From positions 447,001-511,000 of the forward strand of contig JAQGDQ010000062.1 in NCBI GenBank assembly GCA_030141605.1: a DNA stretch of 64,000 nucleotides. The letters are read 5' to 3'. The translations under genes and the position numbers were made by a program. The DNA is from Tubiluchus corallicola (lineage: Eukaryota > Priapulida > Priapulimorpha > Priapulimorphida > Tubiluchidae). The notes beneath the pieces are model-generated. The model worked only from the letters and a program-made list of their open reading frames with translations. It was not told where the DNA came from and ran no database searches. Below, piece by piece: positions 10,216-59,681 of this stretch (its first letter is position 1; each line of letters begins with the position of its first letter).

Positions 10216-13200
10216 ATGCCGAAAAAGTTTCAAGGGGAAAACACAAAAGCTCAATCTGCACGAGCCAGAAAAGCAGCACAGCAAAATGAGAAAGAAGAAA
10301 TGAGAAGAAAAGCAGAGGAAGATGCTTACTGGGCCGATGATGACAAACATGTTAAGAGAAAAGAACAAAGAAAGGTGAGCCTAAAAATGCAGCTGCAGAG
10401 AAGGCAACTTTCTAGTTTGTCTCTAGTTGTGAGTGTACGGTCCCGAAACAATTTTACAGAAATGCTAAACAAGGATGTGTCGATCTGATAAATAATCGAT
10501 AATCAGCAAGCAAATTTGCATATAGGAACAGACCAGAGCTCGGGCCAATACACTTTAATATCAGTAATGGTAATGTGGGGTAATGATATACAGTAAAATG
10601 AAAATAAATCATAATTCTGCTTAATTTATGTGACACTTAAATGGTATAGAAGAGTAACAAATCTGCTAAAAGCCAGCAATCTTTTTTCATTCTTTCTAAC
10701 ACATTTAATAATGGCATGCTCACCCCCTAAAGACTCGTGAATTGCTCCGTTATCGCAGAAGTAAACAAATTACGTGTGATAACTCACATCAGCAGCCAAG
10801 CAAAATAACCTTGAGCAATGAGCATACAATATCCATACATAAACCACTACATGTATAAATGTGCCTAAACCACTCCGTCCACAATATCCATGCATAAACC
10901 ACTGCATGTATAAATGTGCCTAAACCACTCCGTCCACAATATCCATACATAAACCACTACATGTATAAATGTGCCTAAACCACTCCGTCCACAATATCCA
11001 TGCATAAACCACTGCATGTATAAATGTGCCTAAACCACTCCGTCCACAATATCCATACATAAACCACTGCATGTATAAACGTGCCTAAACCACTCCGTCC
11101 ACAATATCCATACATAAACCACTGCATGTATAAACGTGCATAAACCACTCCGTCCACAATATCCATACATAAACCACTGCATGTATAAACGTGCCTAAAC
11201 CACTCCGTCCACAATATCCATACATAAACCACTGCATGTATAAATGTGCCTAAACCACTCCGTCCACAATATCCATACGTAAACCACTGCATGTATAAAT
11301 GTGCCTAAACCACTCCGTCCACAATATCCATACATAAACCACTGCATGTATAAACGTGCATAAACCACTCCGTCCACAATATCCATACGTAAACCACTGC
11401 ATGTATAAACGTGCCTAAACCACTCCGTCCACAATATCCATACGTAAACCACTGCATGTATAAATGTGCCTAAACCACTCCGTCCACAATATCCATACGT
11501 AAACCACTGCATGTATAAATGTGCCTAAACCACTCCGTCCACAATATCCATACGTAAACCACTGCATGTATAAATGTGCCTAAACCACTCCGTCCACAAT
11601 ATCCATACGTAAACCACTGCATGTATAAACGTGCATAAACCACTCCGTCCACAATATCCATGCATAAACCACTGCATGTATAAACGTGCATAAACCACTC
11701 CGTCCACAATATCCATGCATAAACCACTGCATGTATAAATGTGCATAAACCACTCCGTCCACAATATCCATACGTAAACCACTGCATGTATAAACGTGCA
11801 TAAACCACTCCGTCCACAATATCCATACGTAAACCACTGCATGTATAAATGTGCCTAAACCACTCGGTGAAACACTCTCGTAACATAACTTGCTAAACCA
11901 GGTCAGATTGTGTGATTCATATCTTCGGGAAATCAATATTATCTTTAGACGTTACAAAGAATTGATTTTGCCAACTACTATTGGATTAACTACTGTTATA
12001 AAAAGTAAAAAAGTTTAATTTTTTTGTAATTTAAGACACCAATTAAAGCAATTAAATAGTTATGTTATTAACTTATATACTTACACTATCAGCCAAATAC
12101 TAAACCTAATTTGTAAGGTAATTTACATACACTTGGGCTACTTTCAACTTTGTTTGTGGTTGCCCATTAGACAGTTAATTCCGTTAACGACCTTAAATAT
12201 TGTGGAAGGCATTAAAATTACTAATTCTCTTGTTAAATTTTGATCTTTCCACATGAAATAAGTTTTCGTTCCAAATACATTTGCAATAAACTTCAATTAA
12301 TCCTTTTGTGACGATATTTGTATCCAATGAATAGTTCGAAATAGACACTTAATCGTTATTAATCCCTCAAAAATTCTTTTGGAATTCAATTTTGACTTCA
12401 GTCACAGCCTTAAATTCACCACTTGTGGCAGCAATTGTAATGCCATCATATCGGCTTGGGTCTGATATCGGATCGGATCGGCCAACAGCAATAGGTAAGA
12501 CAATCGGTATCGGATCTGGACACAAAAGTTCCCATATCGGGACATCCGTGGTGTTAAACACCTCCCATAATTTCTTTGTCAGTGTATTTGTTTCTAGTTG
12601 AAAATTCAAGTAAAAGAGATTATTTTGGAAATGGAATTCTTGAACGGAAGTAAATGCTTTACAATACGATAAGACTTTTTCATATTTGAACTTGATTACT
12701 GTCTAGCCTGATAAGTGTAATAACTATCAGAATAAAAGTGTTATGCTTCGGAATTTAACTTTTCTAAAAAATGGTTCTTTCTAAACATTTTCATCTCTTA
12801 TTACAATGTTTATTCTACAAGTCAGCATTCCTATTTTCCTATGATCATTCATGTATGTATTGGACGTATTGTTTATTTTGGAAAGTATGTGATAAAAAAT
12901 CGGTCTTCTGGTAGTTACAGAATATTGCACGATTACAGGATGAAAAGGAAAAGAAAAAACAAGACATTTTGGAAAAGAAACATGCAACTAAAGCACTTCT
13001 ACAGGCTGAAGAGGAAGAACTACATAAACAAGTAAAACCACAACAGCAAACTGTCAAGCTGACTCGGGCCCAGATACAGGCTCATGTTGAAAAACAACAA
13101 GAAAAAGGTATATTACGTATTTATTTGCCTTTATGCAGTGTAGATATGGTATTAATTTGGCAAGATGCACATTGTGATTAGTAATTAACTATCTGATAAG

Positions 13201-16200
13201 TAATTAATTTTTAAAAAGTTAGAGTTGCAAAGTTTGTTAAAAATAGAATCTTCAGTATGCACAAATTTTGCATAGTTTGATTAGAAAATCAATTCCCATC
13301 ATTGTAAGTGTAAGTTCAGTGTAAGTCTGATTAGTAAGCTGAATCACAATAAACTTACTTGTTTTCCATCACTTTGAGCACATTAAATGTTACAGTTCAC
13401 CCCAATCCCCAGACTTTTTGGGTTGTTTGCTTGTGATGTAATCTAATAAGTAAGCTGCCCAATGTTTCATTTTCCAGACTAGTTTACATGGCTTACTGTA
13501 ATTTGCAAAACAAACTGAATACTGCAAAATGAAACAAACGAACTAAAAAATGTGAAATGTAGAGACAGGATAGAGGCAGGAAGAGAGAAAGAGAGGGAGC
13601 AATGGAGAGAAAGAGTGTATATGTGCATTTGTGTGAGAGAGAGAGAGAGAGAAGAAGTGAAAAAGTGAGGAAGATCTAGGGAGTATGAGAGAGAGAGAGA
13701 TTGTAAGCTTTGATTAGCTGAACAGCTCTCTCTCTCACACACACGCACACACACACGGCGAGGAAGATCTAGGGAGTATGAGAGAGAGATTGTAAAAGCT
13801 TTGATTAGCTGAACAGCTCTCTCACACACACACGCACACACACACAGCGAGGAAGATCTAGGGAGCATGAGAGAGAGATTGTAAAAGCTTTGATTAGCTG
13901 AACAGCTATCGCTCTCTCTCTCTCACACGCACACACATACACATTCTTTCTCTCCATCTCTCCCTCTCTTTCCCTCTTCCTGCCTCTATCCTGTCTCTAC
14001 ATTACACAGTTTCCTGTTTGCAGTTTATAGAAAGTGTTAGACTATTTTACTGGATTTGCCTTACAGTGATTATACTTGTCAAATAAATTTAATTACATGT
14101 GTAAGTACATGACATTGTCAGTATTGATTACTTTTACAATCCCTCTCACTCTCTTGCATTGAGTCAGTCGCTTCCTCACTCTCTGTCTCTCCCTCCCTGC
14201 TCCCTCTCATCCTCTCCGTCGCTCCTTCACTCTCTCCGTGTTTACTCTTTTTCTCTCGCTCCCCCTCTCTCTCTTGCCTCTGTCTTGTCCTCTTTCTCTC
14301 TCTTTCTCTCTCTCTCTCCCTCCCTCCTCCCTCTCTCTGTCTCTCTCCCTCCCTCTTTCTCTCCCCTCTCTCTTGCTCGCTTGCGCCTTTGCTTTTAATT
14401 AGGCACAGCTTACAATGTCTTTCTCCCCTTCCCACTCTCTCACTTTCCTCTGCTCCCTCTGACTTTTTTGCCTCTATCCTGTCTCTCTTTGTACATTTTG
14501 CAAATTCCTGTTCATTGCATTCGATTTCGTTTCGCAGTTTTCAGTTTATTTCATTTTGCAATTGCCTTTTCGTTTCACATATTACATTAAGATTTAAAGT
14601 TTGTTTAGTTTTGTTTTGCAATTTCCAGTTTGTTTCGTTTCGTTTCGTTTTGCAGTTTGCATTTCATTTCGCAAAGTACAGTAAGCCATTTATACAACCT
14701 CACAAAATGAATATTATAGCCAATTTAAGTTTTCAATTACAAGTAAACTTTGGTTGCAAATAAATTGTTTTGTCTTTTAACAAATCAGTACTGTTTGTGA
14801 GTACAAACAGCAAAACAAAATTAAATTGAATATAGTTATTTTGATGCTGACTTTTAAAATTAATGTGGAGGTTTTATGACCAATACATATATTTCATTAT
14901 TGCTGTCTCCTAAGTTCTTTGTCCCATGCTGTTTCATCTAGTGACAAAACATTCAACTACTACTTATTCGCATTTTGACCAAGTTTTGCATTTTAGTTGA
15001 CTAATTGGGTTTCCTTTAATTACCATATTACAGGTAATCCAGTTATAAAATCTGATTGTTAAGGTGTGAAAGTTTCTTCGTTAATATGGAGCTTTTTAGG
15101 AAATTTTTGTATCTGTTTTAGTCATCTGTGTACTTACTTTTCTGAAATAGCTTGTAACCAGCAATTTTCAGGAAAAACGTACATAGGAAAAAACATGCAG
15201 TTTACCACGTTATGACTTAGCACCATGTTGGGAAATTTTCCGCGTTCATAAAATATGTGGAGACTATTCTCCCTGTTCATTATAGGGAAACTGTTTTAGT
15301 GTTGATTCGTATTTTGCTTTGTTTTTTTTATGTAGAAAGAACTGCAGAAAAGAAAACAGAAGCAAAAACAGTTCATGATGAGCCATTGGTAGAGAATGTG
15401 AATCGATTAGTAATAGAAGGCGAGGAAGCCAGGACAGTAGAAGAGGCTCTTTCTGTCTTATCGTAAGCTTTTAAGCTTTTGTAGATGTCTAAATATGATT
15501 TATTTATTACTGCTTGTAAACTTAGTGTCTCCTGGCTGCTAATATTTATTTTCTTATGCTTGTTTGTACAGATCAAAAGAGCCTGAATTGGACAGACATC
15601 CTGAAAGAAGAATGAAAAGTGCTTACCTAGCATATGAAGAAGCCAATATGCCAAGGTCTGTTGTATGTTTAACAAAATACGTTGTGTATGTATGTGTGAG
15701 TGAGTGCATGTGTCTGAGAAAACACCAGGGAATGTGGAATGTTTTCCTAAGGAATTTGTTGAGCTAATTAAGTCTTAGGTGTGCCTACTTGTTATGGCAT
15801 GTTCTTTAAATACGTTAAGTGCATTAATGGTCCCGAATCAAAGCTGACCATACTTAACATAGTCAGCTGGCTTTCTTAGTAGCATCAGCTGTATTTCACC
15901 AATTAGCTTCTTAGTTTGTGCATTCACAATAACGAAATAACATCTGTCCACACAACTATTAAGCTAGTTTTTTCATCAAATTACAATCAAATCTCCTTAT
16001 ACCACCTATTTTGGGAGAGCAAAAAAAGTTAGCATTAAGCGAGTTTGGCATTATAATGAGATGCATTAATACATGTGTTTATGCAAACATAGATATTTTG
16101 TTTTCAAACTTTTGGTGTTAAGTGATGCAGGCATTTAAGATGGAGGCCGTATAATGAGGTTCGACTGTAGTTGACGTAAATTACGTATATAATTTGTACA

Positions 16201-16385
16201 TTGCGTAATTAGTATGTAAAATTGCTTTTAATCCTATTTCGTTAATGTTTTTAATTTTTAGGTTAAAAGCAGAAAATCCTGGTATGAGATTGTCTCAGTT
16301 ACGTAACATGTTAAAGAAAGATTGGCAGAAATCACCTGATAATCCTCTTAATCAGCAACATCGGACATACAATGCTAAATCCTAG
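10216..16385 (+). CDS. CCDC124: Coiled-coil domain-containing protein 124
   Basis: Small basic coiled-coil protein. In other eukaryotes this family (including yeast Lso2) binds ribosomes in the resting state, and the human protein is also reported at the midbody. Exons: 10216-10374, 12921-13107, 15336-15462, 15572-15655 and 16262-16385 (TAG). The total is 681 bases, 226 aa, close to the human length, and all phases join. The start is fixed by the family N-terminus MPKKFQGENTKAQSARARKA. Further marks are DAYWADDDKHVKRKEQRK, a Lys/Glu coiled coil in exon 2 ending in KLTRAQIQAH, a PLVENVNR segment, DRHPERRMKSAYLAYEEA, and the C-terminal block NPGMRLSQLRNMLKKDWQKS.PDNP. It is convergent with the MAP1 gene. 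Confidence 0.95.
10825..11865. repeat. 55-bp tandem satellite, about 19 copies
   Basis: Lies in CCDC124 intron 1. The unit, about 55 bp, holds CCACTCCGTCCACAATATCC, then CATA.ATAAACCACTGCATG, then TATAAA.GTGC.TAA. Copies differ at only a few sites (ACATA/ACGTA/GCATA, AATG/AACG, CCTA/CATA, CTGC/CTAC), so the array is young or homogenised. Since 55 is not a multiple of 3 and the minus strand lacks stops in all three frames, it yields several long overlapping minus-strand open frames with a 55-residue period. These are a composition effect, not genes. Confidence 0.97.
12390..12580. mobile_element. Possible hAT-like transposon end (GATCCGATA-rich)
   Basis: Repeated ATATCGGATCGG, ATCGGTATCGGATC and CCATATCGGGACATCC motifs resemble the subterminal repeats of hAT elements that begin with a GGGATGTCCCGAT-like end. 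Only one end-like sequence is clear, and no target-site duplication was found. A low-confidence fragment in CCDC124 intron 1. Confidence 0.3.
13484..14690. repeat. Long imperfect inverted repeat with GA/CT-rich core
   Basis: The ends are inverted: ATGGCTTACTGTA.TTTGC at 13488-13506 and its complement near 14672-14692. Inside each end come a TTTGCA/TTTCG-rich block and then GAGACAGGATAGAGGCA (or complement) near 13562, 13985 and 14472. The core is CT/GA and CA microsatellite sequence. It also carries three tandem units of about 90 bp, each starting AGGAAGATCTAGGGAG (13668, 13761, 13850). It lies in CCDC124 intron 2. Open frames here are Ser/Leu or Arg/Glu artefacts. Confidence 0.7.
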
Positions 16386-16565: not shown

Positions 16566-16571
16566 AATAAA
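16566..16571 (+). promoter_or_regulatory. Poly(A) signal AATAAA of CCDC124
   Basis: AATAAA about 180 bases after the CCDC124 stop codon at 16383-16385. Confidence 0.6.
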
Positions 16572-19602: not shown

Positions 19603-22600
19603 TTAAAACTCTAAGCGGAAAGCTGAACAAGCAGTCTCGTGATCTTGAAGATTAACTGTACACCTAGCAGCTGCAGGTGCAAAGTCAACATGCAATTGAG
19701 ATAGTAGCTCTTTATTTAGACCTAACCAATACCCCAGAGAATCCAGATCATCATAGGTAGGAATGATAGTAGCTGGTAAGCTATTGTCCTCCCATGTTGC
19801 CTTACCCTCCAAAAGAGTACTAAGAATCTGTAATGAAGGATTTAGTGCGCTTAAAACATAATAGCGGGGGCGCACACGACAGAAAAAATCTAGTCCAACA
19901 TGCGACAACTTTCCATGAGCTGGAATGTAGACTAAATCAACATACACTGGTGTGACAGGTTTTGAGCTAGCTTTGCCGCGAGGTACGGGTGATGCTGATT
20001 TAGTCAGTGACGTGGGTCGCTTTGCAGGCATGCTCGCTTTTGGTTGGGGTTGCTTTCTTAATGCCTTAGTATCAGGAGAACCAGCAGTTTTGCTAGACCT
20101 ACTTTTAGGGGGACTGTTAGGCCGATTTGCAGATGAGCGTGGAGTAGAAGACCTTGATTTAGCTTTTTCAGGGCTAGAGGGTCGGTTGGAACCCAGTCTT
20201 TTAGTAGGAGATTTTGTTTCACTAGTTTTGTCCGAGGATGAAAAACCATCGGATGCCAGTGTTTGCTCTGACGTGTCATTTGCTTTGCACTGTTGATCAC
20301 CTGCAGCATTTATCTGACTTGACGCGTCTGAATGTACCCCTGAAGTTTGATCATCGGCTGTCTTTGAAGGACTTTCTGTGGAAGGCATTTCGTTCCGTGC
20401 ATCCTTCAGGGGGGACTCTTTTTTTGGAGATGTTGGAGAAGATTTTTTAGAAGGAGATGATGGTGATGCTCTAGATGATGGCGAAGCTCTAGATGATTGT
20501 GAAGTCCGAGACAAAGGGCGATCTTTGCCTGCAGCTGGAGACTTCTTTACAGAAGCATCCTTTGAAGGAGCTTTTTTTCTGCCGGAAGCCATACTAGCTC
20601 CTCTTTTACTAAGTTTCATGGAAACCTCGGTACACTCCGGATACTGCAAAAATTCTAAATTTTTTAATCTGTCAAGTCCTTCTACTAGCTTTTCTTGAGG
20701 ACAGTTTCCGGGATACAAGATCCTGGTAATAAAATCCTGAGGATCTGTAGGCAGCCATACAATCAAGACTGCAGTAGACACCATATCTGGAAGAGGAACA
20801 CCACCACTACCCTTAAATTGTCTGACATTCTTATCCCATTGCTGAAAAAAATCTTTCATTTCTCGACTATCCTTGACAGGATTTAATACGTACATCTGCA
20901 ATGTGCCGTGTCCAACCTTATGATATAATCGAATTGGTTCGACAGCTTGACTACGCACACAAGCATACGGATTTGGTAGATTCAACATTCTGCAGGATTC
21001 AAATAATTTGTTGCCTTCAGAAATTGCATTTACAAGCAAGCTGGCTTCACCAGTATGCTGGGGTGGCTTCTTCTCAGAATTGTTGGCGAAAATGCAGCCT
21101 ATTTGCGGATAGCCATCTGTCTGCAATCGCTGAATCAGCAAAGAACTTAAACCAAACAAGGTGTCCGAACCACAGTGAGACAAAAGAATGGCATCAATCC
21201 TATCTAAATGCTTAACAAACTGCCAGAAACAAGACTTTCTACTAAAACCGCCATTGATTAACATTGTAAACCCAGAGATGCCAAACAGTGCACAATCGCC
21301 TTCACCGGATGGAAAAACATACATGCTAGGTCTGCTAAATCGAATATTTCCTACTACATCAGACGCAGGAAGCAATTTTTCCAATGGTTCTAACTGCACA
21401 CAATTAGAAACATATGAAGCAAAATCAGCATAATCAGCAGCAGGTGCATGACTAGTAGTGTTTACTAACAAATTAAGCTTTTTGGTAAGGCCTGCTTTGA
21501 CAGCATATGTGTTTGTCCATTCACCCTCAGCAATACTGTTGATGCTAACCAAGATATTGCGATTCAGATCAAGCGCACGTCCAACTTCGCTATCTTGCAA
21601 AACAATAGAAAAATCTTCGATGGTGAAAGTGCCATCAGTGAGAATCCACGCTCCGTTCCCTTGAAATATGCAGCCAGAATAAACAATGTATTTGTATGTG
21701 GTGTCTGCCAAAAGAATGTCTTTTATTGCAAGGCTCACTGATCTACAATTAGTTGACAGGATCACATCTACCTGGAAGTTACCACTTGAATGACAAAGGT
21801 GAAGTCCTAAAATATAAGAAAACAATGGCTTAAAAAAAGTAATAAAGTGCTGAAAAAATATACACATGAATGTTTAATAAGCAACACAGATTTTATTCCA
21901 TTAAGGCAATGGGTATTTAATAGGAAACGTTAAAGTGCATGGTTCGCTGAACAACTATAAAAAACCAGATATAGCAGATTTTACATATATGTTTTCTGTT
22001 TTCTGATATTACCTAAGTGTATATATCTCTTAAAGCAGTGCTGAAGATGAACGACAGGTAAATGTCAAATAAAACTGCACAACTAATAAAATTGACTTGG
22101 GTAACCATTCTACAATTTGAAATCATAAAAACTTTCTACCAAAGGAATTAGAAGTTGAACAATTGAAATTCAGCAACATGCATATATTTCAACCTCAGCT
22201 TGCAACCTACCTATTGACAGGACAGTAAAAACCTGCATGAGTTTATTATAACATTTAGCTCAATGGATATGTTAATCCATCACGATATAACAAATGAGAA
22301 AGCTAAGTCAGCTAATGGTTAATTACATATCTAATATTCACTTTTTTTGACAGCAAAAATCTCTAATAGTCAAATGATATTATGACAAATGTTATCACAT
22401 TTATTGAGAAAGGTCTGAGGTAATGGGTAACAGATATATAGGCAGATGTTAAGCTGATCTGATCATGAAAAATATACAGTGACTATCAGTCTACAAGTTG
22501 TATGCTGCCTCAAAATGAATGTCGTGATAAATGACTGATAATATATAATATATATTATATATGTATATATTAACATTTGTTTGCTGAATAATCAGCAAAT

Positions 22601-40900: not shown

Positions 40901-43900
40901 TGTCTTAATGATGAAGAGTCAGTTCATTTGTTTTATGACTACAGCTGTAGCTTTTGAGAAGCTAAATAAACCAACAGGTTAACCTTTAATAACCTCCTTT
41001 TTAATCCAGTAATTTGGGAGTATTACTTTTAGACGAGAGTAAATTTAATAGGTTTTTTCTTGTTTCCTACGTAAAGACTGCTAACAATGACACATTGAGT
41101 GCATTACCTAGCTCAACAATAATCCTAGCCTAGGCTAAATTTAGTTTTCATGAAATTTGGCCAGAGAAGTTAATTATTACCTTTAATTTCTGTGCATGTA
41201 TTAAGCAAGAAAGTTGTGGCTAACAGCTGTGTTTATTACATATGAGCATGCATTGCTGAACGCACTATAGATACCAGTGATGTCTTGTGAAAACTAATAC
41301 AGCTTATTTTTGCTTGCGTAAAGCTTTTCGTCAGTTTTTAAATGTGTTATGGTTATCATTAATGTCTAGACTACATTTTGACAATCATATTTTGCCTTCT
41401 GTGCTACTTTAAATGCTGGTAAATAAGTAAACGGCTGCTACTTGCAACTCTGCAGTAAGGTGTGTGCATAATTACCTTTTGCATTTGATCTTCTTGGTAA
41501 ACTAAAATGAAATTTGCACACTGTTAGTTCTATCACGTGGAAAACAAAATTCTAATACCAATCTAAAAGAATTAATAAGTTTAGTATGGTATTTCACGGC
41601 ACAGACAATTTTGCTGGGAGTTTTTTTTTTATTAATTAAAACTGCCCGATCGTCCTGATTTTTCTGAAATTACTAATATTAATATTCTACCATTTTAGCT
41701 ACAAGTTCTGCTAATAGTGGTTGGAGTATGTTGCACCTTACTTACCAGGTTGAGTGGCCTTTGCATATTCTTTTTACTCAGAATGTGTTAGAACGGTAAG
41801 TCAACTTTTGCACCATACCACAAAAAGTATTTGTTTCCGATTAATCCATTATTGTCCATGTCCCGTTTAAATAAATATTGAACGATATCCGCTTGGTCAC
41901 TTTTAGTGTAGTATTACTGTCTTAGGGCCGAAATGTTAATTTATCGTATAATTTAAGACATTTTGTCTGAGCGAAAATGAAAAGCCAATTAAATATATAA
42001 TGTATAGTTGACAACCCGTGTATTTACAAACAATTTTGACATGCCCAATAAGTATCAGGATGATGTAGAAGGATATGATAGAGCTCAGAAAAACCAAATG
42101 TCATCACACGAGATTTGTAAGGGAAAATTAACCTGCATGTAGCAGTTTGGGTAGTCTTCTTCTGTCTAATATTGATAGTACTAGCAATAGTTGTAAAACA
42201 GATTCTGATAATCAAATATAATTATGTCAAGCAGTCATGCCCACAAAATCTAGCCGTCACTATAGCTTCTACTCTATATCTAATTGTTTTTTAATTGCAT
42301 CTGTTCTGTATCTAGTTTGTGGAAAATGTTGCAAATTGTTTGCTAGTAAAAGGAGACAACTTTTATCAGCAATGCTATACAAATTTTTTTTCCTTACCGT
42401 TGTTATTGTCGTGTAGTTTGTAACTAAATTATTACTGTAGACAAACATAAACAGGACAGCCAAATTTTGTATTTCTTGCTATACTGCCAGTTTCATTTGT
42501 CACTTGTCTGCCAAGTAAAGTGCTAATGTGAGAGTGTTGATGCAACTGTGAGAGTGTTGATACAAACAGTTGCAACATGTGATAGTGCAGTGCTCACAGC
42601 CTGATGCTCAAAAGACTGTAAGGTCAGGGGCCTAGAAAAGAAATATTGAATGAGTTAAGGTCAACAGGACGTTACCTTCACTTGTTAATTGTTTTTTTTT
42701 GTTCCAGATATAATTCCATATTTAAGTTTTTACTATCAGTATCCAGGGCTCAAGCTGCATTACACAACTGCTGGGCTGTGTTAATGCAACACAAACATCT
42801 CACAAGTTCTGTGACATCTGCTGTGTGGATGTTGCATAATCACTTAACATTCCTTATTAATAACTTGCAATATTACTTAATGGTAAGTTGACTTTTATGA
42901 TATGTGATAATTGTGCATAATGTTGCTTCTTAACGACTTGCTATAGTTTATGACCAATTGAGGTCAGTTTTCGCATGTCATATTGCACTTGATTTATTTG
43001 ATGAATTGGGTGCCAGAAAAAATAAATGCAAATCTAGTTTTGCTCTTGGCATCAAAGTCATTCGTGTGCAAAAGTACGAGACAGTACAAGAAAACAGCTA
43101 TGAAATGGATCTACAAGACACACAATGAACTGTTAATCATAATGTGCTTACATTGTGCTGAAACTTCAAATCAAATTGTCAATACATTTTTAAAACAGCA
43201 GCATAGAAATTTAACCTTTTCCTGATTTAATGTAGAAAAATAAGATAGTTCTACAGACTGATGAGCTGTATCTGTTGTATCATAAAAACTGCAATTGTTC
43301 TGTTCAATTTGCAGGTGGATGTACTCGAGTCGCAGTATGAAATTCTTTTGAATAAAATACGGACAACTAAAGACTTTGAAGCTATCATATTGGCTCATGA
43401 GACATTCCTTAATGTTATTCTAGCACAAACTTTCATTCTTTTGAAACCAGTAAGTTTACTCATGAAATAATGATTTCAAATTGCTGGGAAACAAAAGGTT
43501 ATTACTAATTTCACAAAAATTTACAAGTGTGTTCCTGATCTTCTAGTTCAACACAACCTTTTTAAAAAGTCCACTGTTTTCTATCGGCTTTGTTTAATTA
43601 TATTTCTTACAGTTAATTTAGTGAATTTGGTTAATGTAACTGAGTTAATATCATGTAGAAAAGAATACTAAGAATGTCACACTGGTAATAGTGTCCCACT
43701 TTTTGCAGTTTATTTTCTCTACCCCAAATGCTATACAGTCAAATCTCATTATAATGCCCCTTTTGGAATTCCAGCCTCACCACCTTTAACAAAACAGAAT
43801 GTATGTATTTGTGTAGTACTGTATCTATTAATTGCACCTCTTTATAATGCCAACACTTGCTTAGTGCCAATTTTATTTATGCAGTTCTGTAGACGATGCT

Positions 43901-46900
43901 ATAAAGAGGTTTGACAATCTACGGTGCTTTACTCGTTTCGTTTTCCTCCGTAAGCTAATGTCTTTTGCTGCACACATTTTTCCTTCCTGTTCTGTCAGCA
44001 TGTGAGCTTTTTGTTTGCTTTAGGTACTTAACATGCAACTTTGATTGATGCTTAAATATTTTCATCTGTAACGTGGTTTGTGATTTTCTTCTCACAAATT
44101 TCACTGTCTATACGATAAGTTTGCAGAAAAACAACTGATAGGTGCCATTTATCCCTAAAATGCGAGCATTCCTCCTCCAGAGCCTCTTGTTTTGCTACAT
44201 AGTAAATGAAAGGAACACTTAAATCTGTTTCAGGAGTTTTGAATTTTTCTAATACCTAAAAATTCAAAGTTGGTTTGAAAATTCAAAAGAATTTCTTAAC
44301 CGTCCATTGCAACTAATACACTGTCTATCTGTCAAAGCTTCCTAGCACCATAATGCCATTTAGGTTAGGAAGAATGTGCTTTTGCCTAGCATAAGCAGAA
44401 TATGTTATGCATAATTAGCAATAATTAGTTATTGTATGCTTAAATTTCTGTAAAAAGCAGATTCTGTGTAAATAGTTAGTCCACTTAGAAAATACATAAA
44501 AAATTGGAACAAATCTGGTTCAATGCATCTTTTGCACATTTTTCAGAAGAAAAAGTACGTTAAAGGCTGACCAAAGGCATTTGTGCAAAATCAAATACTG
44601 ATGAAATTTGATACACTTGCTGTCTTAATATTTTTTGTTTGTGGTTTGTTAGGCATCACAGTGTATTAGCGAAATTTTGTCACTTTGCCATACTTTCTGT
44701 AAATCTGTTGAAGGCAGCTTTGTTCCACATAACAAATTCAGCATTGAGGAATTCAGCAAAATCTCAAAGGTAAATATTCTTATAACAATAAACTAGAAAA
44801 TGTGTGGTACTTAGCTGAGCAGAACTTATGTAAATTCGAAGTGCTATAGTCACAACAGTGGCATGTTAAGATGTTCAAGCCCAACACTGCACACTTTACT
44901 CTAGTAGAAATTTACACTTATCTCGGCATAAAAAAATATGTCTGCCTATAATTATCATCAATATATGATTAGGTACTATAGTTCCAATTTCTTTATGAAA
45001 CTTTTGGTCCATGTAAATATAATTATAATTATAGGAGTACCTAATTGCATACTGATTATTATTTTTTAATTAATAGGCTAATAACAAAAATCTTGTACTG
45101 CTAGTTAAACTTCTTTAACTTTCTTACTAACTTACCAATTAAGAAAGTCAATATGAAGTGATATATACCTCAGGCAATGTTTTAATTTCATCATAAAATT
45201 TTGAACAATAAAATAATTATAATTATAGCATTCATCATAGTATTTTAATATACAGATAGATGTAAATCAGGGGTGTGCAAATTGCGGCCCGCCGAGAGAA
45301 TTTGTGCGGCCCGCGAAGAGATTGGTCAACCTAATGAAAGTGCAGCCCGGGCGATTAATTGACTGTATCCAGCTGAAGTCCACGCCACGATCCCAAAGAT
45401 AGTGTGGGTAGTTTTTTCTACTAGATCGGATGCCATTAACCCTTACAAGACGGTTGTAGCTTAATGTCACTGTACTACACAGACTGTGTGATACACATTA
45501 CTAATATGCATTGTAATGAAATTAGCACTATCTGTCCTGAAAGTAGAAATATATGGCTTGTAATATAAATTTTAATAACTTCTAAAATAGTTTCTTGAGT
45601 GTAGTAGTAACGATGTACGCAGTTCGGATGCAAAAAAATCGTTATTAGGCCTTTCTGTACTTGGCTTCTTGATCAAACTGCCTGTGGCCCGCAGGAATTG
45701 TGGTAAAGTTTAATGTGGCCCGGCTAGTCAGATAATTTGCACACCCCTGATGTAAATGTCTTCTCGCATAACAAATCTTAGAATTTTTGAGTGGTAGAGA
45801 TAGATGCATGGATGGAAATTCATAGCAATAAAACAGCAGTGTGTGGAACTTTCTTTTGTCAACAATTTTTTTTTTATTTTGTCTTCAATAAATCTCCATT
45901 GTCCAATATTTGGAAAAAGATTGTATTTCTGATTAACAAAAATGTAAAACACAATTTTGCTGTATAACAGTGATACAAGATGTCTATTACACAGTTCTTC
46001 TAAACAGCAATGTACAGGGTCAAACTAGTTAATTAGTTGATTGTATGACACTAAAATGAGATTCGTATTGATGTTTTCATGCTGAGGTATGACGGCTGTA
46101 GTGAATTTCTGTTATTTAAGCGTGCCTACAGAAATGTAACAGTAATCCAGGCATGCCATTGATCAAAATGTTTGGATACAGGAACATTTAGATGTTTGGA
46201 TTTTTACTCTTTTTGCCATTACAATTCATTTTTCATTATTAAAGTACGAATCTGATTGGATAATAACCCAGTAGCTGTGCATTTGTGATATACCGTATAT
46301 ACTCGCATATAAGCCTACATCGCATATAAGCCGACCCTCTAAAACTGCTTTAAAATGGCCAGTTTTTGCAAAAACCCGTATATAAGCCGACCATCAACTT
46401 GTCTAATTTTACTCCATACCCAATCAACAAAATTGATCCCTTTTTGTCACATTTTGTTAATTGGGTATTTTTGGTTCATAGAAATTTTTTACTATAAAGA
46501 TGTAAAATGCTTACTTTTATGTTACATACTAGAAGAAATAGAAGAAATTATACATTTTGATATGAATAAAGAAGAAAATATTTTGTTTTCTATTTATTCA
46601 CAAAAAATTATAACATTTCTGTTTATAATTTAACGTTCTTAAAAATAATTAGAAACCTTCAAAATCATTGTCACTACCACCCTCATCGTCTCTGTCTCAA
46701 ACTTATAGAGTGTCTGTTTTCTAAAAAAAAGTGGGTGGACGGCGATCCCCCACGATCCCCTCCAATACACCACTGGTGACACACAACCAAATAAAGAGTC
46801 AGATAGCGATGAAAATGTGTGGCTGGAAAATTGGCATTAGTGTCTGTTCTTGTGTCCATTTTGTTTCATGCGCATATAAGCCGACCCCCTGATTTCAGTA

Positions 46901-47980
46901 TTGTATTTTATAGTTCTAAATTCGGCTTATATGCGAGTATATACGGTACAAGTTTTGTGCCACTTTTGTTTACCCACGACTAGGCACATGTGGGACCACA
47001 TGTGGCATAAAACGTCTGTAAAACCCAGAGTCAGTCTACAAGTGATAGAGTATAAATTTAGTTAAAGTATAAATGGAATATTGTTTTGAGCTGGTTCTTT
47101 TTTAATTTTTTAAGAACATTTCGCATGCTAGGAAACATATCTAAACATACCAACAGGACACTGAATTCTCCTAATGATTTTGTTTTCAGAGTTTTTCTAG
47201 ACGTACTTCACTGCTGTTTAAAATTCTGTCTGGAGTTCGTTCTCATCAGTCCAGTCTACATCTAGCAAAGCTACTTAATCTCATTGATTTCAATAAATAC
47301 TTTTCAAACTCAGGATGTCAGCTTGGACCACTTATTAATGAGTAAGTAAAGCACAAAGTTTTAGTTACTACAGTTGTAGTTAAAAGAAAATAATTATATT
47401 TGTGCTTGAGTAAGTAAAACACAAAGTTTTAGTTACTACAGTTGTAGTTAAAAGAAGATAGTTATATTTGCGCTTGAGTAAGTAAAACACAAAGTTTTAG
47501 TTACTACAGCTGTAGTTAAAAGAAGATGGATACATTTGTGCTTTGGCTACTTCAAAAAGTAACTCTTAACACACATGCTTCTCAAACTGTAAGTGCAACT
47601 CTGGTGTATTTGAAGGCCACCGAAACCGAAGAAATATTTTCCGATTTGCACCCACGTGAAACATTCGGCCTTTTCTTACTATTGCCATATCTTTCCAACT
47701 TCTGTTAAACATGGCCTTAACAAATGTTAGTGTAAGCATTTTGAAATCAGTGTTGTAAAACACCCAGCAGTGGATGCACTGGAAACGCATTTTGGCTACC
47801 AGCAATGATTTAGCTTAACATTTTCATTATTCAACTTTATTAGGGTAGAGAAGTTTTTGAGATCCACACACAAAACAATTTTTGCAATGTTTTATACTAA
47901 ATAATATATTACTATATTAAAATAATTAGATCATGTTATTTTTTTGCAGCAAGTCAACAAAGAATGTTTCTAAGATATAG
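28979..47980 (+). CDS. TUBGCP4: Gamma-tubulin complex component 4
   Basis: GCP4 is a subunit of the gamma-tubulin ring complex that nucleates microtubules. Sixteen exons: 28979-29089, 29616-29760, 30675-30826, 31900-31956, 32834-32913, 33606-33726, 34756-34927, 35153-35286, 38436-38592, 40310-40402, 41699-41795, 42708-42882, 43315-43449, 44653-44769, 47190-47341 and 47950-47980 (TAG). The sum is 1929 bases, 642 aa, and every junction keeps phase. The start is supported by MYRELLFALNGYPGSVF, the family N-terminus. Other marks are YKQLYAWLLHGLLLDDQNEF, LPSYFTIRVAEQVLFIGESV, FLLGRGELFLAFID, VEWPLHILFT, INNLQYYLMVDVLESQ and LAQTFILLKP. The acidic loop before the PSYF segment seems about 40 residues shorter than in human GCP4, or an exon there was missed. 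Introns total about 17 kb and host many transposons. Confidence 0.95.
30300..30400. repeat. GC-rich interspersed repeat (GGGGGC/CCCCC hairpins)
   Basis: A sharply GC-rich patch in an AT-rich TUBGCP4 intron, with GGGGGCTTTCCCCCTCAACC, then CATTGGGGGCCTAGGTGG, then CCCCCAAAACCCCCAGCC. It can fold into short hairpins. It has the look of a fragment of a dispersed repeat, but no second copy is in the window. Confidence 0.4.
33231..33383. repeat. Short inverted-repeat element (about 150 bp)
   Basis: The left arm ACAGTTGTTGAATTTTGAAA followed by CCAAACTTGCTC, and the matching complement at about 33335-33383, form a hairpin with a loop of roughly 50 bases. No clean target-site duplication was found. 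Probably a tiny MITE in a TUBGCP4 intron. Confidence 0.6.
34426..34714. repeat. 25-bp tandem repeat, about 11-12 copies
   Basis: Unit CATAGCTCTGTACGGTCTTG plus CTTGT, with copies differing at a few sites (ATAG/ATGG, ACGG/ACAG). The array stops about 40 bases before the acceptor of the exon starting at 34756, so it occupies the region just upstream of the branch point and polypyrimidine tract. Confidence 0.95.
36712..37193. mobile_element. hAT-type MITE, family A (482 bp)
   Basis: Ends CAGGGGTGTGCAAA / TTTGCACACCCCTG. Flanks GTGTAGAC and ATGTAGTC match at 6 of 8 positions, a decayed 8-bp duplication. It has the same length (482 bp) as the inverted copy at 45268-45749 and is closely similar to it throughout. 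Confidence 0.88.
37416..38020. mobile_element. hAT-type element, family C (CAGGGCCGGATTAA ends)
   Basis: Begins CAGGGCCGGATTAAGG and ends TTAATCCGGCCCTG, with flanks TCTGTTAG and TCTGTTGG (7 of 8). Subterminal GGTGCCCTAAGCAC and its relative TGGTGCCTTAAGCAC face each other. The 605-bp body shows no transposase frame. It lies in a TUBGCP4 intron. Confidence 0.88.
39006..39738. mobile_element. hAT-type element, family D (TAGTGGTGGGAC ends), with nested LINE piece
   Basis: Ends TAGTGGTGGGAC / GTCCCACCACTA with a perfect 8-bp duplication ATCAGAGG at 38998-39005 and 39739-39746. TTAATCG/AATTGATTA motifs lie inside the ends. The interior 39240-39362 matches the 3' part of the LINE fragment at 8400-8520 (GTAGTCTAAGCAT, CCATCTTAAATG, TTTTTCTTGTCCAAGGTTC). 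The element has therefore captured, or been hit by, that LINE. Confidence 0.88.
39815..40136. mobile_element. hAT-type MITE, family E (CAGTGGTTCCCAAA ends)
   Basis: Ends CAGTGGTTCCCAAACTTT / AAAGT..GGGAACCACTG type with a perfect 8-bp duplication ATTTAAGG at 39807-39814 and 40137-40144. Inside each end are TACCC/GGGTA blocks. It is 322 bp and has no transposase. This end sequence is a well-known hAT (Charlie-like) signature in animals. Confidence 0.92.
45268..45749. mobile_element. hAT-type MITE, family A (482 bp, inverted copy)
   Basis: Perfect 8-bp duplication ATGTAAAT at 45260-45267 and 45750-45757. It is in reverse orientation to 36712-37193 and of equal length. It lies in the TUBGCP4 intron between the exons at 44653-44769 and 47190-47341. 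Confidence 0.93.
46293..46946. mobile_element. Tc1/mariner-pogo-like element (CCGTATATACTCGC ends, TA target)
   Basis: Long terminal inverted repeats CCGTATATACTCGCATATAA and TTATATGCGAGTATATACGG, flanked by TA on both sides (46291-46292, 46947-46948). Additional GCATATAAGCCGACC repeats lie inside each end. Near 46650-46690 the minus strand reads an acidic tail ending DNDFEGF-stop, like the last residues of pogo/Tigger-type transposases, but the rest of the gene is deleted. Class by ends and TA target is solid; the pogo assignment is inference. Confidence 0.8.
47341..47544 (+). repeat. 68-bp tandem triplication that includes the splice donor
   Basis: Three copies of a 68-bp unit start at 47341, 47409 and 47477. 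Each opens with AGTAAGTAAA, and the first of these is the donor of TUBGCP4 exon 15 (exon end 47341, GTAAGT from 47342). Later copies thus carry decoy GTAAGT donors. If splicing used them, the coding frame would hit TAA directly after the normal exon end. Confidence 0.9.
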
Positions 47981-48258: not shown

Positions 48259-51200
48259 TCACCAATCTATTAACCATCTAAACCAAGACTTTCTGTTATC
48301 TTCTGCTTTTGCATCCTTTGAAAAATATTTATCAAACAATGATTTTGCTTCTTGATCTAACACAGGTGGTCGTTCTATTTGAGGCAACTGTTGTGGTGAC
48401 CAAAGTGGTACTTGACCTTTTCCGAACCAATTTCCATCGAATTTTGGCAACTCGTCTATTAGAAAACAGAGCAGTCAATTAGTATACAAACAGCAAAAGT
48501 GGACATTTACTTTCTATTTTCCATGATCATGTATTATACTTTAAAAATGATAACATAAATTATAAATTTATGTTAAAACAGGCTTAAAAATGTCTATTGA
48601 CCTATTACCTTTGTCCAAGTTGGTAAAATTTTCTATAGTTTCTTCAGTGCCTTCTGGTCCTTTGCGTGTTGTAATGCTATGTGATTGATCATGCATAGAG
48701 CGAGTAATAACAGTTTCTTCATGACCCTCTCCATCTCTTACAACTTTCTTTTCCTCTATTGCCTAGAAGAGTGATAGCTATTTCTTGGAAACAAACCTGT
48801 CTGAGACCTAATTATAGCCAATTTGTACATAAACACTTAGCCAAAACACTATACCAACAAAATACAGTGCAGTTTGATAGCTAAAGTATTAATTATGTAT
48901 TGACAATGAATGTGTACGCTTAATAGTTGACTAGAAAGTTTTGATTTTGGTTTTGCATTCTGCAATTGATGAAAACCAAAAATGCCAAAACATTATTTCC
49001 CTGGAGTTAAGGGCATGGTCCCCACGTGTACAATCAGTGCATCAGTAACAACACTGGAATTGATAACCACTAACTTGGCAACTAAAACGTGATCTCGGGC
49101 AGGACCCCTCTACTCGGCAAAAAAGTTAAAACGACCAAAGACGAAAAACTTTAGTCTGATCAGTAAACAGTAATCGATTACAAATACCGAAATACACAGA
49201 AATTTGTCCAAACACACAAATTGGCCCCAGAACAAGGTTGTGCGGACTTGCAGTTCCGTGGATACGGCTAGGTTTTATTCTTCAATAAACAAACGACTGA
49301 CTAATCAATAGCCACTTACACCATCAGGTCTTTTAACTTTCGTTACTTGAACACTACGAAATACAGATGTTGGTCTTCGCTGTTCATCTCTTTTTAGTAT
49401 GCTGTCCAGGCCACCTTTGGCAACTTTGTCATCTAAATCTATAAAATAAGCGAAATAAAAGAGCTGTTTATTCACACCCGCAAAAGCACTTGTGCTTAGT
49501 TAAAACTTTTTCACGAAGACACCCACTATAACGCAGCATAGACTATTAAATCTACCCGCCTATTATCAACAATGCACAAAGTAATTGCAAACATCCCTTG
49601 CAGGGTCTGGCTTGCATAGAAAACAATAGATATTGCAAAATGAGGGTCCAGGCTGAAGCCCTTAAATAGACATATTGTAAATTCTCATTGGGAATGAGTA
49701 AAAAGTTACTTTACTCACGTCACTATTCTTTTTATTGAGAATTGATCTGTGTTCTCCTTGAGAAACCGTGAAATTGGAATACTCATTCCTTTCAGTTATG
49801 TATATTACAATAAAGGCATTTTTAAGACTTTGAAACTTTCTTTTCACAGTTCTTTCTTGTTTAGGCAGTGTGCTTATTTTTATCTGAAATTAAAATTACC
49901 TCCAAAAATCTTTTTTCTGGAGGTTCTAGGGATACAGTTTTTTCATCGTTCTTTGTGTGAACTTTTACGAATTTCGAATGGTTATCTGCTGAAAAGCAAT
50001 CCTAGTGCAAAAATCCTGGGTCTTCCAGAAAACTAGATCATGTTCATGCCATTTCACAGATGCCCAAACCCTCATAAAAAACCAGACGCTGTCTATAAGA
50101 CTATAACATTGTCAGCAGAATGGTGTGAAACACTGAACATGCTTTAATTGTGTTAACTAACCTGTATCAAGTTTAATTGATGGCTGCTCCATTTGTGAGT
50201 ATGGGTTGCCCCAAAACCTTCCAAACTGTAAAATTTTTATAAAAAGAAACAAATATTACTATCTTCCAAAATAGCTATTTTAACCGGCTAATGGCAAATG
50301 ACTAACAAATAAAAGCCCTTAAAATGAATAATTACAGACAGCATCGTCAAAAGCTGAGTTAAGAGTAACATGATTTTTGTTTAACCTAGTTCTGAACATG
50401 ATGATATAGTGCACATGGGTGTCTGACCTGAGTTATAACTATTGTCAAGTTGCATCAGTTATATTATAAACTGCAGTTTCACACAGTGTGCCCTTCTAAA
50501 AACTGAAATTGTTCCCAATTTCCTAACTGCCAGCAAACAAGAATGCTATAACTACATGTACTTATACTAACAACAATTGTTGACAGTTGCATTTTTCAGG
50601 AATTTTTTTACTAAACACTCACACTATAACACTAGGTATCTCCAAATCTCCAAAGAAATAAGCTGAATTACTTCAAGTTCATTTAAGGATAGTTTAGTAG
50701 GCTAGTTGCAGTGCACTTGTGGTTTTGTTAAGGTTCTGCTACTGTAACGAACAAAAAATAAGAGACCACGTGTGTCCATGACACCATTACACTGCTCGTG
50801 ATTTGTGACCAATATTTTATTTTGAATATTCTGTATGGCAAGAATGGAATTATACGGGTGGTTTCGACAGAAGGTATGATACAACCTGGACAAGTACACT
50901 GGTGGATCACATACCATAGAGAGGACTTGGCAGAAAGCATAATTTTCTTAAACTTTGTATTAAATCAGGGTTAGGAAAATTTAGCATGATTGCAGAGATT
51001 CCCCAACAATGTCCTCCTCACTGGCAGATTCATCGTTTTGAACTTTCAGTTATAAGTCAAAAATGTAGGTTTTAGAAAACTAGATATTTTTAGAGTCCAT
51101 TTAAAATTTTGCCGACAATTCTTTTGAGTGACGGGGATTAATTCAAGAAATGCACAGCGCCGCTATAGCTGTGGTGTGAGTCATCACTTCACCTATAGAT

Positions 51201-51928
51201 GAAAAATAGACAGTAATTTGTATTGTCCAGAATCCTATTTGAGTATCTTCTTTCTTGTTAACTCTTCATTAGTAGCAGCTTGCTTAATTTTACAGTATTG
51301 ATTTCCAGATATAATTTAATATTCTAAAGAGTTTCTAGACACACTCTTCTACAAGTACATATGTGACTAAGCCACATCAGATTATAGAAAAAACAATATG
51401 TTAAATAATAATCGTGGAGGAAGTACATTGCACAGCATGGCTCACAACGAATAGATTGTTCACACACTTTAGGTTTGGGAAGCTTCTGATTCACTTTAAT
51501 TTTTACAGTGAGTAAGAGTCATTCCAAAAACCTCGGTTTCCCTTCGACAACAGTCTAGATGATTATATGGTGATTCAATGTGTTTTCTCACAATACGGTC
51601 CACTGTCTTTCGCATCAGAAAAACTCACCGAAAAGGGACTTCCTTGTCGATGGCTTGGTTCTTCAGGTTCTCGCAACATATGATCTCGTGGTGAATGGTT
51701 TCGGTTTTCGTCAGCATCTCCGACAATGTTTCGCTCGGGGACACCTTCAATTGTTGGAAATTCGATCATACCCAGATTTCGAAAGATTTCTTCGAAATGA
51801 CGAAATAAGTCATGCGATTCAGTAAACAGGGATGGTGCATGGAAAAAGTCATCCGGCCCATTCTTGCGGGGGCCTCGAAAAAATGGATTGAAATTCGAAA
51901 ACTGATCCTCGTCGCCGGGGTCATTCAT
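48259..51928 (-). CDS. HAX1: HCLS1-associated protein X-1 (HAX1)
   Basis: HAX1 proteins are mitochondrial anti-apoptotic scaffolds that also bind actin-regulating and chaperone partners. Exons in coding order: 51928-51629 (ATG at 51928-51926), 50225-50162, 49438-49320, 48762-48609 and 48455-48259 (TGA). The total is 834 bases, 277 aa, against 279 in human, with all phases correct. Recognition rests on the signature from exon 3 into exon 4: FRSVQVTKVKRPDG then AIEEKKVVRDGEGHEETVITR, matching the HAX1 'SVTKITKPDG-VEERRTV-D-G--ETTVTR' block. The N-terminal exon is Phe/Pro-rich with HDLFRHFEEIFRNLGM, like the family's FDDLVRDFNSIFSDMG. The C-terminus is divergent and Trp-rich (FRWLIDW). An in-frame TAG just upstream of the ATG, inside a possible acceptor, suggests that coding starts here, perhaps after a 5' UTR exon. 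Confidence 0.88.
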
Positions 51929-54900
51929 GATAACCTAAATGAGAAATGGGCAGATTTTAAAATACATTTAGTAGATATTTATTTTCTCTGGTTTTACTTT
52001 TAGGCACTAGCACTGTGGTAATTGTCACTGTCCAGAGCACTTGTTTCTATTTAAAATTTGAACTTCACATCTTACAATTTTCAAGCAATGCAACAAACTA
52101 GCTGCAGTGCCAGAATAACTAAAGATAGCTAACACAGTGGCCATCTCGTGATATTGCAGATACAGGAAAAAAACCTGGACCAGTCTCAAGGTACGAAAAG
52201 GGAGCCGATCACTATGCACTTTATAATAAATACAATTCTATTCTAATATCGCTATGTTAATACTGTAACTTTAATGTTGCGATGTGTAATTCTGTGTTCT
52301 TAATTGCGTAGTAAGTAAATTTTCATAATTTAGTGCCTTTTGTTTCATATTATACAGTTTCGTGAAATACGCTTTCCTACGTACTGCTGAACACTTAAAA
52401 GTATCGTATGAAAGTTTTTACGAGTGTGGAGGTGTAATTTAACAATGTGGGCGGAGCTGCAAAGCATAGTGAAATTTATATGGGCTGACATGACATGATC
52501 AACACCATGCACTTTGGAGTCGGTTATCAACGTAAGCCGCCATGGCAACAAAACTCCGAAAAAGTATTTGAGCAATGTGAAAAACCTTTGAGATCGACGC
52601 TATTACTGTTATCTATTGGGCAAAAAGCAAAACAAAAACCTGCAGTAATTGTGCCACTAGCTGAAGTTTTAGTCAGTGTTCAGTAATTTTGTTTACAATG
52701 TGTCTCGCTGAAAATCATTATTTATTATAATTGTATAAGAGGTAAATTATGTAATTTTTTCACTATTTTCGTGATATGATTATTAGTGGTCTGTATTGAT
52801 GGTGTGCAGTTACTGTATTCCTAAGTAGGAGGTGGTTATAAAATACCTTCTTCAGAGAACTCAATTAACACGTGATAACAGATTAATTAGGAAATGTGTA
52901 GCAGTACTGGAGCTTCATTGCAAAGCTCCCAAAATTAAAAAAAATATAATCAAGGCTTCAGGTTGTCACGTTTTTTGCGACACTATATGCAACATTCACT
53001 GGCGCTTACTCGATAGCCTCATCTACTGTACCATAGACTGCTTTACCTTGTACAGCGACATTGCCGTGGTACACAACAAGGTGGTAAGCGGCTCCACAGT
53101 ACACAGTCAGCAAGGCCATAAACAGGAATGTCGAGCAAGCATAGTGTTACTTTTGTAGTGTGAGTAGAGTTGTTAATATGCAATTATTATTAATATTAAT
53201 ATTAATGACAAATTAATTGATTACTTAATATACTAATTGATCCGATGAGCCAGCTGAATACCCAGACTTAAACCAATATTTTTCTAGCAATGTGGAAGAT
53301 CTTAAGTCAATGTAGTTGATACCAACAAATGATTTGTGTGAATATGCGTGCTCGGCCACAATTTACAAGCATGTTAAAAGTTTCATCAAGTGTATCAGTT
53401 TATTGGCTATCTAATGACAACTAATTAATAACCGATGATTGAACGAAAATTAATTTTACTTCGTTTTAAATAATTGTCAGAGGAAGAAGTTTGCCATTTT
53501 TCAAACAGTTTAAATACCCTAACCCTAATCTGCTTCACAAACTATTTTTTGTGTGCAGGGAATTGTAAACTTTAGACTTGTCAGTGCACATGTGTTACTC
53601 GGTTTAATTCGCAACCATCGGTTCGGCTCACAATTGACGTAATTCCCATAAGCCAGCTACCTATCAGCATGAAACTCAATACTTGGAAGTTATAACTTAA
53701 CAAGTCAGACTTCGATTTATTATCCAGAAATTTTTGAATGCTAAATGTGCGCTACGTGGGACAAACGCGCACGCTTAACATCCACGTGTATTTCCATGCC
53801 GTGTACCGCTTCAAGGCCCTCGGCTTGTATTGTGGTGCCATGTACAGCGGTGCAGTGTACCGCAAGGCGGTACAAGGTGAGGCAATATACGAGGATACCG
53901 AGCGAGTGTGAACGTCCCATATACTTTTGATGCGCACCGCCATGTTGTAGGACATGTAGATCGAAAATTTTTAATAATACTATAATTATAAATTATACTT
54001 ATAGTTTAATACTCAATAATAGATGTATAGTCGACTTTCTAGTAAAGACGACAACAGTTCACGAGAGTGGGTATTTAGCCATAACATACGACCATACTTA
54101 CAAGTGAGTTATTAATTGTCAAACATCCTTTTTTAAATTAATAATAATAATAACAGCTTATGCAAACAGCTCCTCAACTGCAAAATTTCATTTCAGACGA
54201 GTTTAACATGGGAAATCTTTTTTATAAGCAATTGTCAATGTCATCAGTCCATGGATTTAAATCTCCAATCTCACCCACGGCCACAGGTCCATCAATGACC
54301 ATCACCATGATTGTTGACACTAGAGGGTGAGCATCGAACGTTCGAGTTCGATACGAACCTAAAACTATAGATTCGAATAATTCAGCACATACATTTTTAT
54401 CCTTAAAATCATGCAATTAGCATAATTTAGCTGTGATTTATGTGAATTATTTTAAACAGATTATTAGTGGTTTTACTGCAGAACAAAATCGAGTAATATG
54501 CATGATCTTTGTAAGACTAACTTTTAGTGGTGGTTCGAAACTTATTCGAAAATCTTTCAATCTCAATTCGCCTTCTGGTATGGAGATTGCTCACCCCTAA
54601 TTGACACCTGTTGGAATGTTGGTAGTTAAAACTATTTATTCCAATGAAATGTACACTACTGAAGTACTACATAATAGATAATAATGATAATACTGTGTCA
54701 GTTCATTGAAAATTCAGTAAAAATAAATTGATAAATGCCAATTTGCCACGATCTTGCTAGTGTCCAATCATGATCACCTGTAAATGTTCTTCTTTACAAT
54801 GACATCAGGAGGTAGAGTTTAATTCCACTCATCAGCATAACTGCTTATTAAATATTTCCTGAATTCACAGATTCCACCAATAAAAGCCACATTATTCAAC

Positions 54901-58300: not shown

Positions 58301-59681
58301 ATGAAATTTACAGTCCGTATTTGTTCATCGCTAGCATTACCTCTTACATCTAATGTACGAAAAAACTTTAGAAAGAAAATTTTCATTTGTGTAAAAGTTT
58401 TGTACTCATTACAAATAGATAACAAATTATAATCCATTATAGAAGATGCGTGAAGTCGAGAATCATGTGCAAAGAAACTGGCTATGTGATTTTCACTATA
58501 TAAGCAACTATGATAAAATTTAACAAATCGTTTTTGTAGTTATATAAGTGGGGGAACAATATCACATGTAAAAGGAAGGCAGTATCTGTGTGATCTAAAC
58601 GGCAAATTCCAAAGTTTTCTTACTGCAACATTCCAAGCTGTACTTAATTTAGAAATTTTACTATCGAGTTTCCAGTAACTGTGACAGTAGCTAAGGAAGA
58701 CACATGATTTTAAATCTGTGTATAAGTAGGAAAAATTAGCAAAAACGTAATTAGCAAGGTATAAAAAATGACTGCGTCATCATCATCTTGTAAATCAAAA
58801 GTTAAAATGTGACACAAGCGAGTAGTTAACCTGACTGAAAAAAGGCAGGCCTGTTTTCAAGTAAAATTAGAGGGCTGCGTTGTTTTACTTTACAGTTACC
58901 ATTTCTAAAAATAATACATTTACTTTTTACCTTATTTTGCATACTAGAGAAATTTATATTGAAATGATTACCATAATTTTCACATATAGTTACCATATAT
59001 TGCGAAGATTTAGCATTAGGTGCGAGCAATGATACATCATCTGCATAGCCGAGGGCCCCAGTATAAAGGTTGCCAACCTTACATCCAATATCAGAATCAT
59101 GTAATTTAAACAAATGACCATCAATGTAGACACCAAATAAAACAGGAGATAATATTGTCCCTTGTCTTACCCTATAGAGAGGTGCACTTCTTTAGATCTA
59201 AAATTATTCCATTTAACGCAAGCACATTGCTGCATATTTAGCAAAACTCTTATTATACAATAGGGGATGTTTTTATCAATCAACAAATTAAACAGCCTAC
59301 AGTAATGAACCTTATCGAATGTTTTCGATGCATCAAGCATGGCATAATACACAGGACAACCGTTGTTTAAGATTATTGTACACATAGATGTAAATAATTT
59401 GGGTTTGAAGCCGAATTGTTGGTCTGAAGTACATATTAGTAGTGACATAACTGACATAGTAAAGTCACACAGACCTGTAAAAGTACAGAAAAAAGAAATA
59501 ACCAGGTTGGAACATTAAAATTGTAGTCTTCGGTCAAGTTAATATACTGAGAAAAAAATTCAACAAAATTACACCAAAAACAAAACCGGTGATAATTCAA
59601 TAATCAAAACACAATACTACACCTATATTCATATTTTTCATCTGTGTACTTGTCGGAGTAGTAAATGTGTTTCTCGGACAT
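55321..59681 (-). CDS. CKS1: Cyclin-dependent kinase regulatory subunit (CKS1/2)
   Basis: Binds CDKs and phosphorylated partners to promote cell-cycle transitions. Exons in coding order: 59681-59623, 57589-57462 and 55373-55321 (TGA at 55323-55321). The total is 240 bases, 79 aa, exactly the human CKS1B length. Visible features are [54 protein letters not shown] and [17 protein letters not shown]. The beta-hinge HxPEPH is at residues 60-65 with Glu63. The phosphate-pocket and CDK-contact residues appear intact. The tail after LFRR is PRADLSQS rather than the lysine-rich end of vertebrate CKS1B. Each exon is tiny and the introns are about 2 kb; intron 1 contains a LINE. A TTTATT at 55048-55053 is a possible poly(A) signal. 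Confidence 0.96.
55740..55830. repeat. AT-rich (TATA)n palindromic tract
   Basis: Alternating TATATA runs broken by GATCCG/CGGATG words that read as nested palindromes, in CKS intron 2. It can form cruciforms. No gene. Confidence 0.8.
55998..56190 (+). repeat. Interspersed repeat, copy 2 of 2
   Basis: Homologous to 7548-7785 over AAAACTGCTGACGCA through GGCCTTTGCTAGTT in the same order. This copy lies in CKS intron 2. Sequence upstream (55848-55997) may belong to the same element but is too diverged from the other copy to be sure. Confidence 0.7.
58081..59460 (-). mobile_element. 5'-truncated non-LTR retrotransposon in CKS intron 1
   Basis: The minus strand encodes a reverse transcriptase: [31 protein letters not shown] (motif A, LDASKTFD), a [18 protein letters not shown] block (59120-59180) after one frameshift, and [11 protein letters not shown] (YADD codons 59036-59047). 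A thumb and C-terminal region follow down to about 58255 with several stops. The 3' end at 58081-58092 is a (TA)n run, a common LINE tail. It is a dead CR1/jockey-like copy antisense to nothing: it shares the CKS transcription direction. Confidence 0.85.

Follow-up and report, generated by a model that had tools for sequence, protein, structure and literature searches.

The genes CCDC124, MAP1, TUBGCP4, HAX1 and CKS lie within 50 kb of each other on one contig of this animal genome, and we read their closeness as an unexceptional example of ancestral linkage conserved on a protostome chromosome, with a probability of roughly 0.77. Ancestral linkage of this kind is already well known: orthologues that share a chromosome tend to stay so across phyla, and vertebrates hold duplicated copies (Simakov et al. 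2020, PMC7269912; Sacerdot et al. 2018, PMC6193309; Nakatani et al. 2021, PMC8302630). The ancestral linkage groups described for bilaterians and chordates are chromosome-scale statements, whereas the region studied here is 50 kb of a single contig, with five genes that carry no group label.

Materials and methods

The window is the whole stretch of 64,000 nucleotides that was analysed, bases 447001-511000 of contig C1903 (749 kb), from an assembly of 343.5 Mb in 2344 contigs. Human query sequences were used for CCDC124, CKS1B, HAX1, the GCP4 C-terminus, GXYLT1 and the panel of flank genes. The flanking contig was covered over 240 kb, by eye and with a weak coding score, a procedure that may miss further flank genes.

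Among the few Hox homeodomain sequences in the assembly, one has a UbdA-like tail together with Lox2/Lox4-like features, which suggests, on sequence grounds, a protostome (probably a lophotrochozoan) and thus a pre-duplication genome. A search of the assembly for mitochondrial COX1 gave no match. The contig pairs C767/C1979 and C205/C528 gave near-identical match patterns, suggesting uncollapsed haplotypes.

Results

The five genes

The first-pass annotation had named five genes between window positions 10216 and 59681, and the sequence bears out all of them, each where it had been placed:

10216-10374, 12936-13109, 15341-15463, 15591-15656 and 16260-16376, + strand: CCDC124, five exons; collinear tblastn matches with human CCDC124
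19606-21873, - strand: MAP1 family gene, main coding exon; Pfam MBL_MAP1B (8.5e-78) and MAPB1_N (1.8e-17)
30614-47327 (~17 kb), + strand: TUBGCP4 (gamma-tubulin complex component 4), several exons; PDB, tblastn and Pfam
48262-51934, - strand: HAX1, at least four exons; collinear tblastn matches and shuffle test
59681-59622, about 57603-57463 and 55374-55345, - strand: CKS, three exons; tblastn with human CKS1B, the end of the last exon not fully traced

The exons of CCDC124 were 43-68% identical to the human protein, the first of them matching with an E value of 1.3e-15 in tblastn. Its first intron holds a minisatellite (window 10826-11865) in which a 55-base unit recurs about 19 times, the copies being 97% alike.

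The long MAP1 exon encodes the MAP1-type metallo-beta-lactamase-like (MBL-like) domain and a C-terminal light-chain-like end. The Pfam match to MAPB1_N starts at profile position 62, and the N-terminal ~60 residues must lie in a predicted upstream exon. The gene in the window is compact. Most of its approximately 750 residues are encoded by a single exon, and its size is nearer to that of MAP1S than to the giant MAP1A and MAP1B.

For one exon of TUBGCP4, all five PDB matches were GCP4 or unnumbered gamma-tubulin complex components, with GCP4 at 7.7e-19 to 2.7e-18, and the C-terminus of human GCP4 was collinear with the gene over 41719-47327. The Pfam match of the first exon to GCP_N_terminal was below the cut-off. 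The other GCP-like match in the assembly reached only 27% and lies on C2192.

HAX1 is the weakest of the five by identity. The assembled candidate scored 163 against human HAX1, while 1000 shuffles gave 41 +/- 7 with a maximum of 73. Compared with human CKS1B, the three CKS exons reached identities of 75, 73 and 100%, in exon order, and we take the gene as a single ancestor-like copy of CKS1B/CKS2. One locus each was detected in the assembly for CCDC124, MAP1, TUBGCP4 and CKS, although a missing match is not strict proof of absence. Remnants of LINE-type reverse transcriptases are found at window 58829-59514 and 60500-62043 (-) and at contig 586654-589626 (+), one of them in the first CKS intron.

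Neighbouring genes

A sixth gene shares the window, and PGM3 and DAXX were placed to the left and right of it:

about 583-5081 of the window, + strand: GXYLT-like glycosyltransferase (GT8); tblastn with human GXYLT1, best match 39%, E 3e-16
C1903:407528-434351, - strand, left of the window: PGM3, complete-looking, nine collinear exons
C1903:530380-542895, roughly 20-30 kb beyond the right edge of the window, at the CKS end: DAXX; histone-binding domain 9.7e-23

A PDB search with the GXYLT-like gene gave weak GT8 relatives only. The left flank also carries a GT31 galactosyltransferase gene and the right flank a DUF268 gene; exons at contig 355-360 kb that had been considered for an O-mannosyltransferase were ruled out by Pfam. 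We take human PGM3 to lie at 6q14.1, GXYLT1/2 at 12q12 and 3p13, and DAXX at 6p21.32 in the MHC region. The human homologues of PGM3 and GXYLT sit in other regions than those of the five genes, so the contig does not stem purely from a single linkage group.

TP53BP1, SHC1, PMVK, RPL18A, SERF2, RPS27, PFDN6, RPS18 and LSM4 gave no match within 304 kb around the window, in a search with partly incomplete human queries that can miss short exons.

Several related cysteine-rich proteins that look secreted, with the motifs 'DFLP..L..WAY.P' and 'CD.NPCG.GGTC', are encoded in tandem at C1903:549055-620076 (-); one member was run against Pfam, without a match. Long open frames of protein repeats lie at C1903:338584-340335 and 543782-544696 ('TDELQQSTTLQASTETE' and 'TGAEQLGLQQTCQVSPNIDF').

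Human counterpart regions

We take human CCDC124 and MAP1S to lie at 19p13.11, HAX1 and CKS1B at 1q21.3 with UBAP2L beside HAX1, and CKS2 at 9q22. The first-pass annotation had counted three human neighbour pairs among the five genes. One of these, MAP1A with TUBGCP4 at 15q15, is supported by a published gene list and by the gene order of the goat; the others are the pairs at 19p13.11 and 1q21.3. The list for 15q15 places TP53BP1, LCMT2, ZSCAN29, TUBGCP4, ADAL, CKMT1B, MAP1A, PPIP5K1 and ELL3 together, and the goat order runs TUBGCP4, TP53BP1, MAP1A, PPIP5K1.

Two published gene families link the bands concerned: MEF2A/B/C/D lie at 15q26.3, 19p13.11, 5q14.3 and 1q12-q23, and the lecticans at 15q26.1, 19p13.11, 5q14 and 1q23.1. 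It is plausible that 1q21-23, 15q and 19p13.11, and also 5q13-15, are copies of one ancestral region, which fits both quartets. Compared with this quartet of regions, known from MEF2, the lecticans and HAPLN, MAP1A/B/S, TUBGCP4, HAX1 and CCDC124 fall inside, whereas CKS2 and the flanking PGM3, GXYLT and DAXX fall outside.

The presence of DAXX and of a CKS1B/CKS2 relative had prompted the idea that the whole set is the MHC paralogon. In that comparison (chromosomes 1, 6, 9 and 19), DAXX on 6 and CKS1B/CKS2 on 1 and 9 fit, but MAP1A and TUBGCP4 on 15q15 do not. The MHC regions on these four chromosomes have been derived from one pre-duplication chromosome (Sacerdot et al. 2018, PMC6193309), but the broad proto-MHC chromosome was later described as a fusion artefact that splits into seven groups, Pvc5, 11, 13, 14, 15, 17 and 18 (Nakatani et al. 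2021, PMC8302630). The idea was set aside on two counts: MAP1A/TUBGCP4 lie outside the quartet, and a wide proto-MHC chromosome is under dispute. According to Nakatani et al. 2021, fusions brought several proto-vertebrate chromosomes together in that putative chromosome, so that a common cytoband on 1q or 19p13 is by itself weak evidence.

Linkage elsewhere in the genome

If there was a common ancestral chromosome, further genes that lie beside the five in human should also be linked to each other here, and this prediction was tested. PPIP5K was found at C1974:972517-980330 and UBAP2L at C1974:1105888-1105977, 126 kb apart on a contig of 1.30 Mb. The chance that two given genes lie this near is about 0.0008 before the handful of pairs tested is allowed for, and roughly half to one percent afterwards, which is still notable. 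This linkage supports descent of 15q15.3 and 1q21.3 from a common ancestral chromosome.

The SK-channel genes were located on C767 and C1979 and ELL on C2208, all of them contigs other than C1903. Their human copies sit in the same bands as the counterparts of the five genes. Because these contigs are only 125-311 kb long, the placement speaks neither for nor against a shared chromosome. A search for FCHO (muHD) had no match here and none in the controls, and so carries no weight either way.

How surprising is the clustering?

The proximity of the human counterparts was simulated with five families at their observed copy numbers. At least three pairs within 25 human genes occurred with P 0.00016 if the genes are random genome-wide, a value to be read in the light of genes and pairs picked post hoc and of pair distances that were assumed except for MAP1A-TUBGCP4. 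If the families share an ancestral group of 600-2500 human genes, P rises to 0.014-0.24. Under the same-group model, a single pair as close as MAP1A-TUBGCP4 (within two genes) had P 0.05-0.18, and one such pair together with three loose pairs had P 0.004-0.08. As the genome-wide null is rejected and the same-linkage-group null is not, unrelated genes are rejected as an explanation, whereas conservation of a block at the level of single genes is not demonstrated. In sum, three pairs this close are improbable across the whole genome, but unremarkable given a shared ancestral chromosome (P 0.01-0.24).

Discussion

The first-pass annotation saw in this region a possible pre-duplication segment that was later split among vertebrate paralogous regions. 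That much is supported by the single loci of the four genes tested, by the MEF2 and lectican quartets and by the PPIP5K-UBAP2L linkage; its further proposal of a compact, unsplit block is not. Against the short block stand the foreign genes in or near the window (PGM3, GXYLT, DAXX) and the human next-door genes, which gave no match within 304 kb (queries partly incomplete) or lie on other contigs.

The history that we propose begins with a bilaterian ancestor in which the five genes would already have been on one chromosome; the shared linkage group is inferred here, as are the human positions for the most part. In the vertebrate line that chromosome would have been duplicated twice, its copies now being human 1q21-23, 5q13-15, 15q and 19p13.11. 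Loss of most copies would have left CCDC124, TUBGCP4 and HAX1 as single survivors and the small families MAP1A/B/S and CKS1B/CKS2 scattered over the pieces. That all five now lie within 50 kb of each other is most probably a chance result of local shuffling inside the linkage group. Only one pair, MAP1-TUBGCP4, hints at true microsynteny, and it may be a surviving pair of ancestral neighbours.

Alternatively, the five genes may have stood side by side in the bilaterian ancestor and been kept so here, each vertebrate duplicate retaining a different subset. We consider this unlikely. MAP1A and TUBGCP4 are one gene apart in mammals, as the goat shows, and adjacent here, and five random genes would rarely yield three close human pairs; the closeness of the pairs is, however, unexceptional given shared macrosynteny. 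A retained block also sits poorly with the lack of matches to TP53BP1, SHC, PMVK, RPL18A, SERF2 and RPS27 in 304 kb (queries partly incomplete), with neighbours foreign to the set (PGM3 and GXYLT), and with the finding that PPIP5K and UBAP2L, which adjoin MAP1A and HAX1 in human, share a different contig, C1974. The survival in this lineage of a microsyntenic block CCDC124-MAP1-TUBGCP4-HAX1-CKS from the bilaterian ancestor is accordingly a doubtful proposition; if it were true, the block would show at near-gene resolution how genes were lost reciprocally once vertebrate genomes had been duplicated.

The genes could also come from two or more ancestral linkage groups, having been joined in this lineage by coincidence, the human bands seeming related only as 1q and 19p13 are mosaics. 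The dissolution of the proto-MHC chromosome into seven Pvc groups (PMC8302630) agrees with such an origin, as does the presence on one contig of PGM3, GXYLT and DAXX, which come from apparently different regions. We nevertheless give coincidence little chance, as a second, independent linkage of 15q15.3 with 1q21.3 was found on C1974 and the MEF2 and lectican quartets join exactly these four regions. A common function or regulation that keeps the genes together is barely credible: MAP1, TUBGCP4 and CKS share a loose microtubule and cell-cycle theme only, into which the ribosome-associated CCDC124 and the mitochondrial HAX1 do not fit, and the genes lie on mixed strands with long introns and repeats between them.

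Our preferred reading remains conserved linkage on a chromosome that would later have been duplicated in vertebrates. In the literature searched, no direct report of CCDC124-MAP1-TUBGCP4-HAX1-CKS linkage was found. The finding leaves the accepted picture unchanged. Should other invertebrates show the linkage too, it would provide one more clean example of an ancestral gene neighbourhood that duplication and loss parcelled out among vertebrate chromosomes, and would make MAP1-TUBGCP4 a candidate neighbour pair from before the split of protostomes and deuterostomes.
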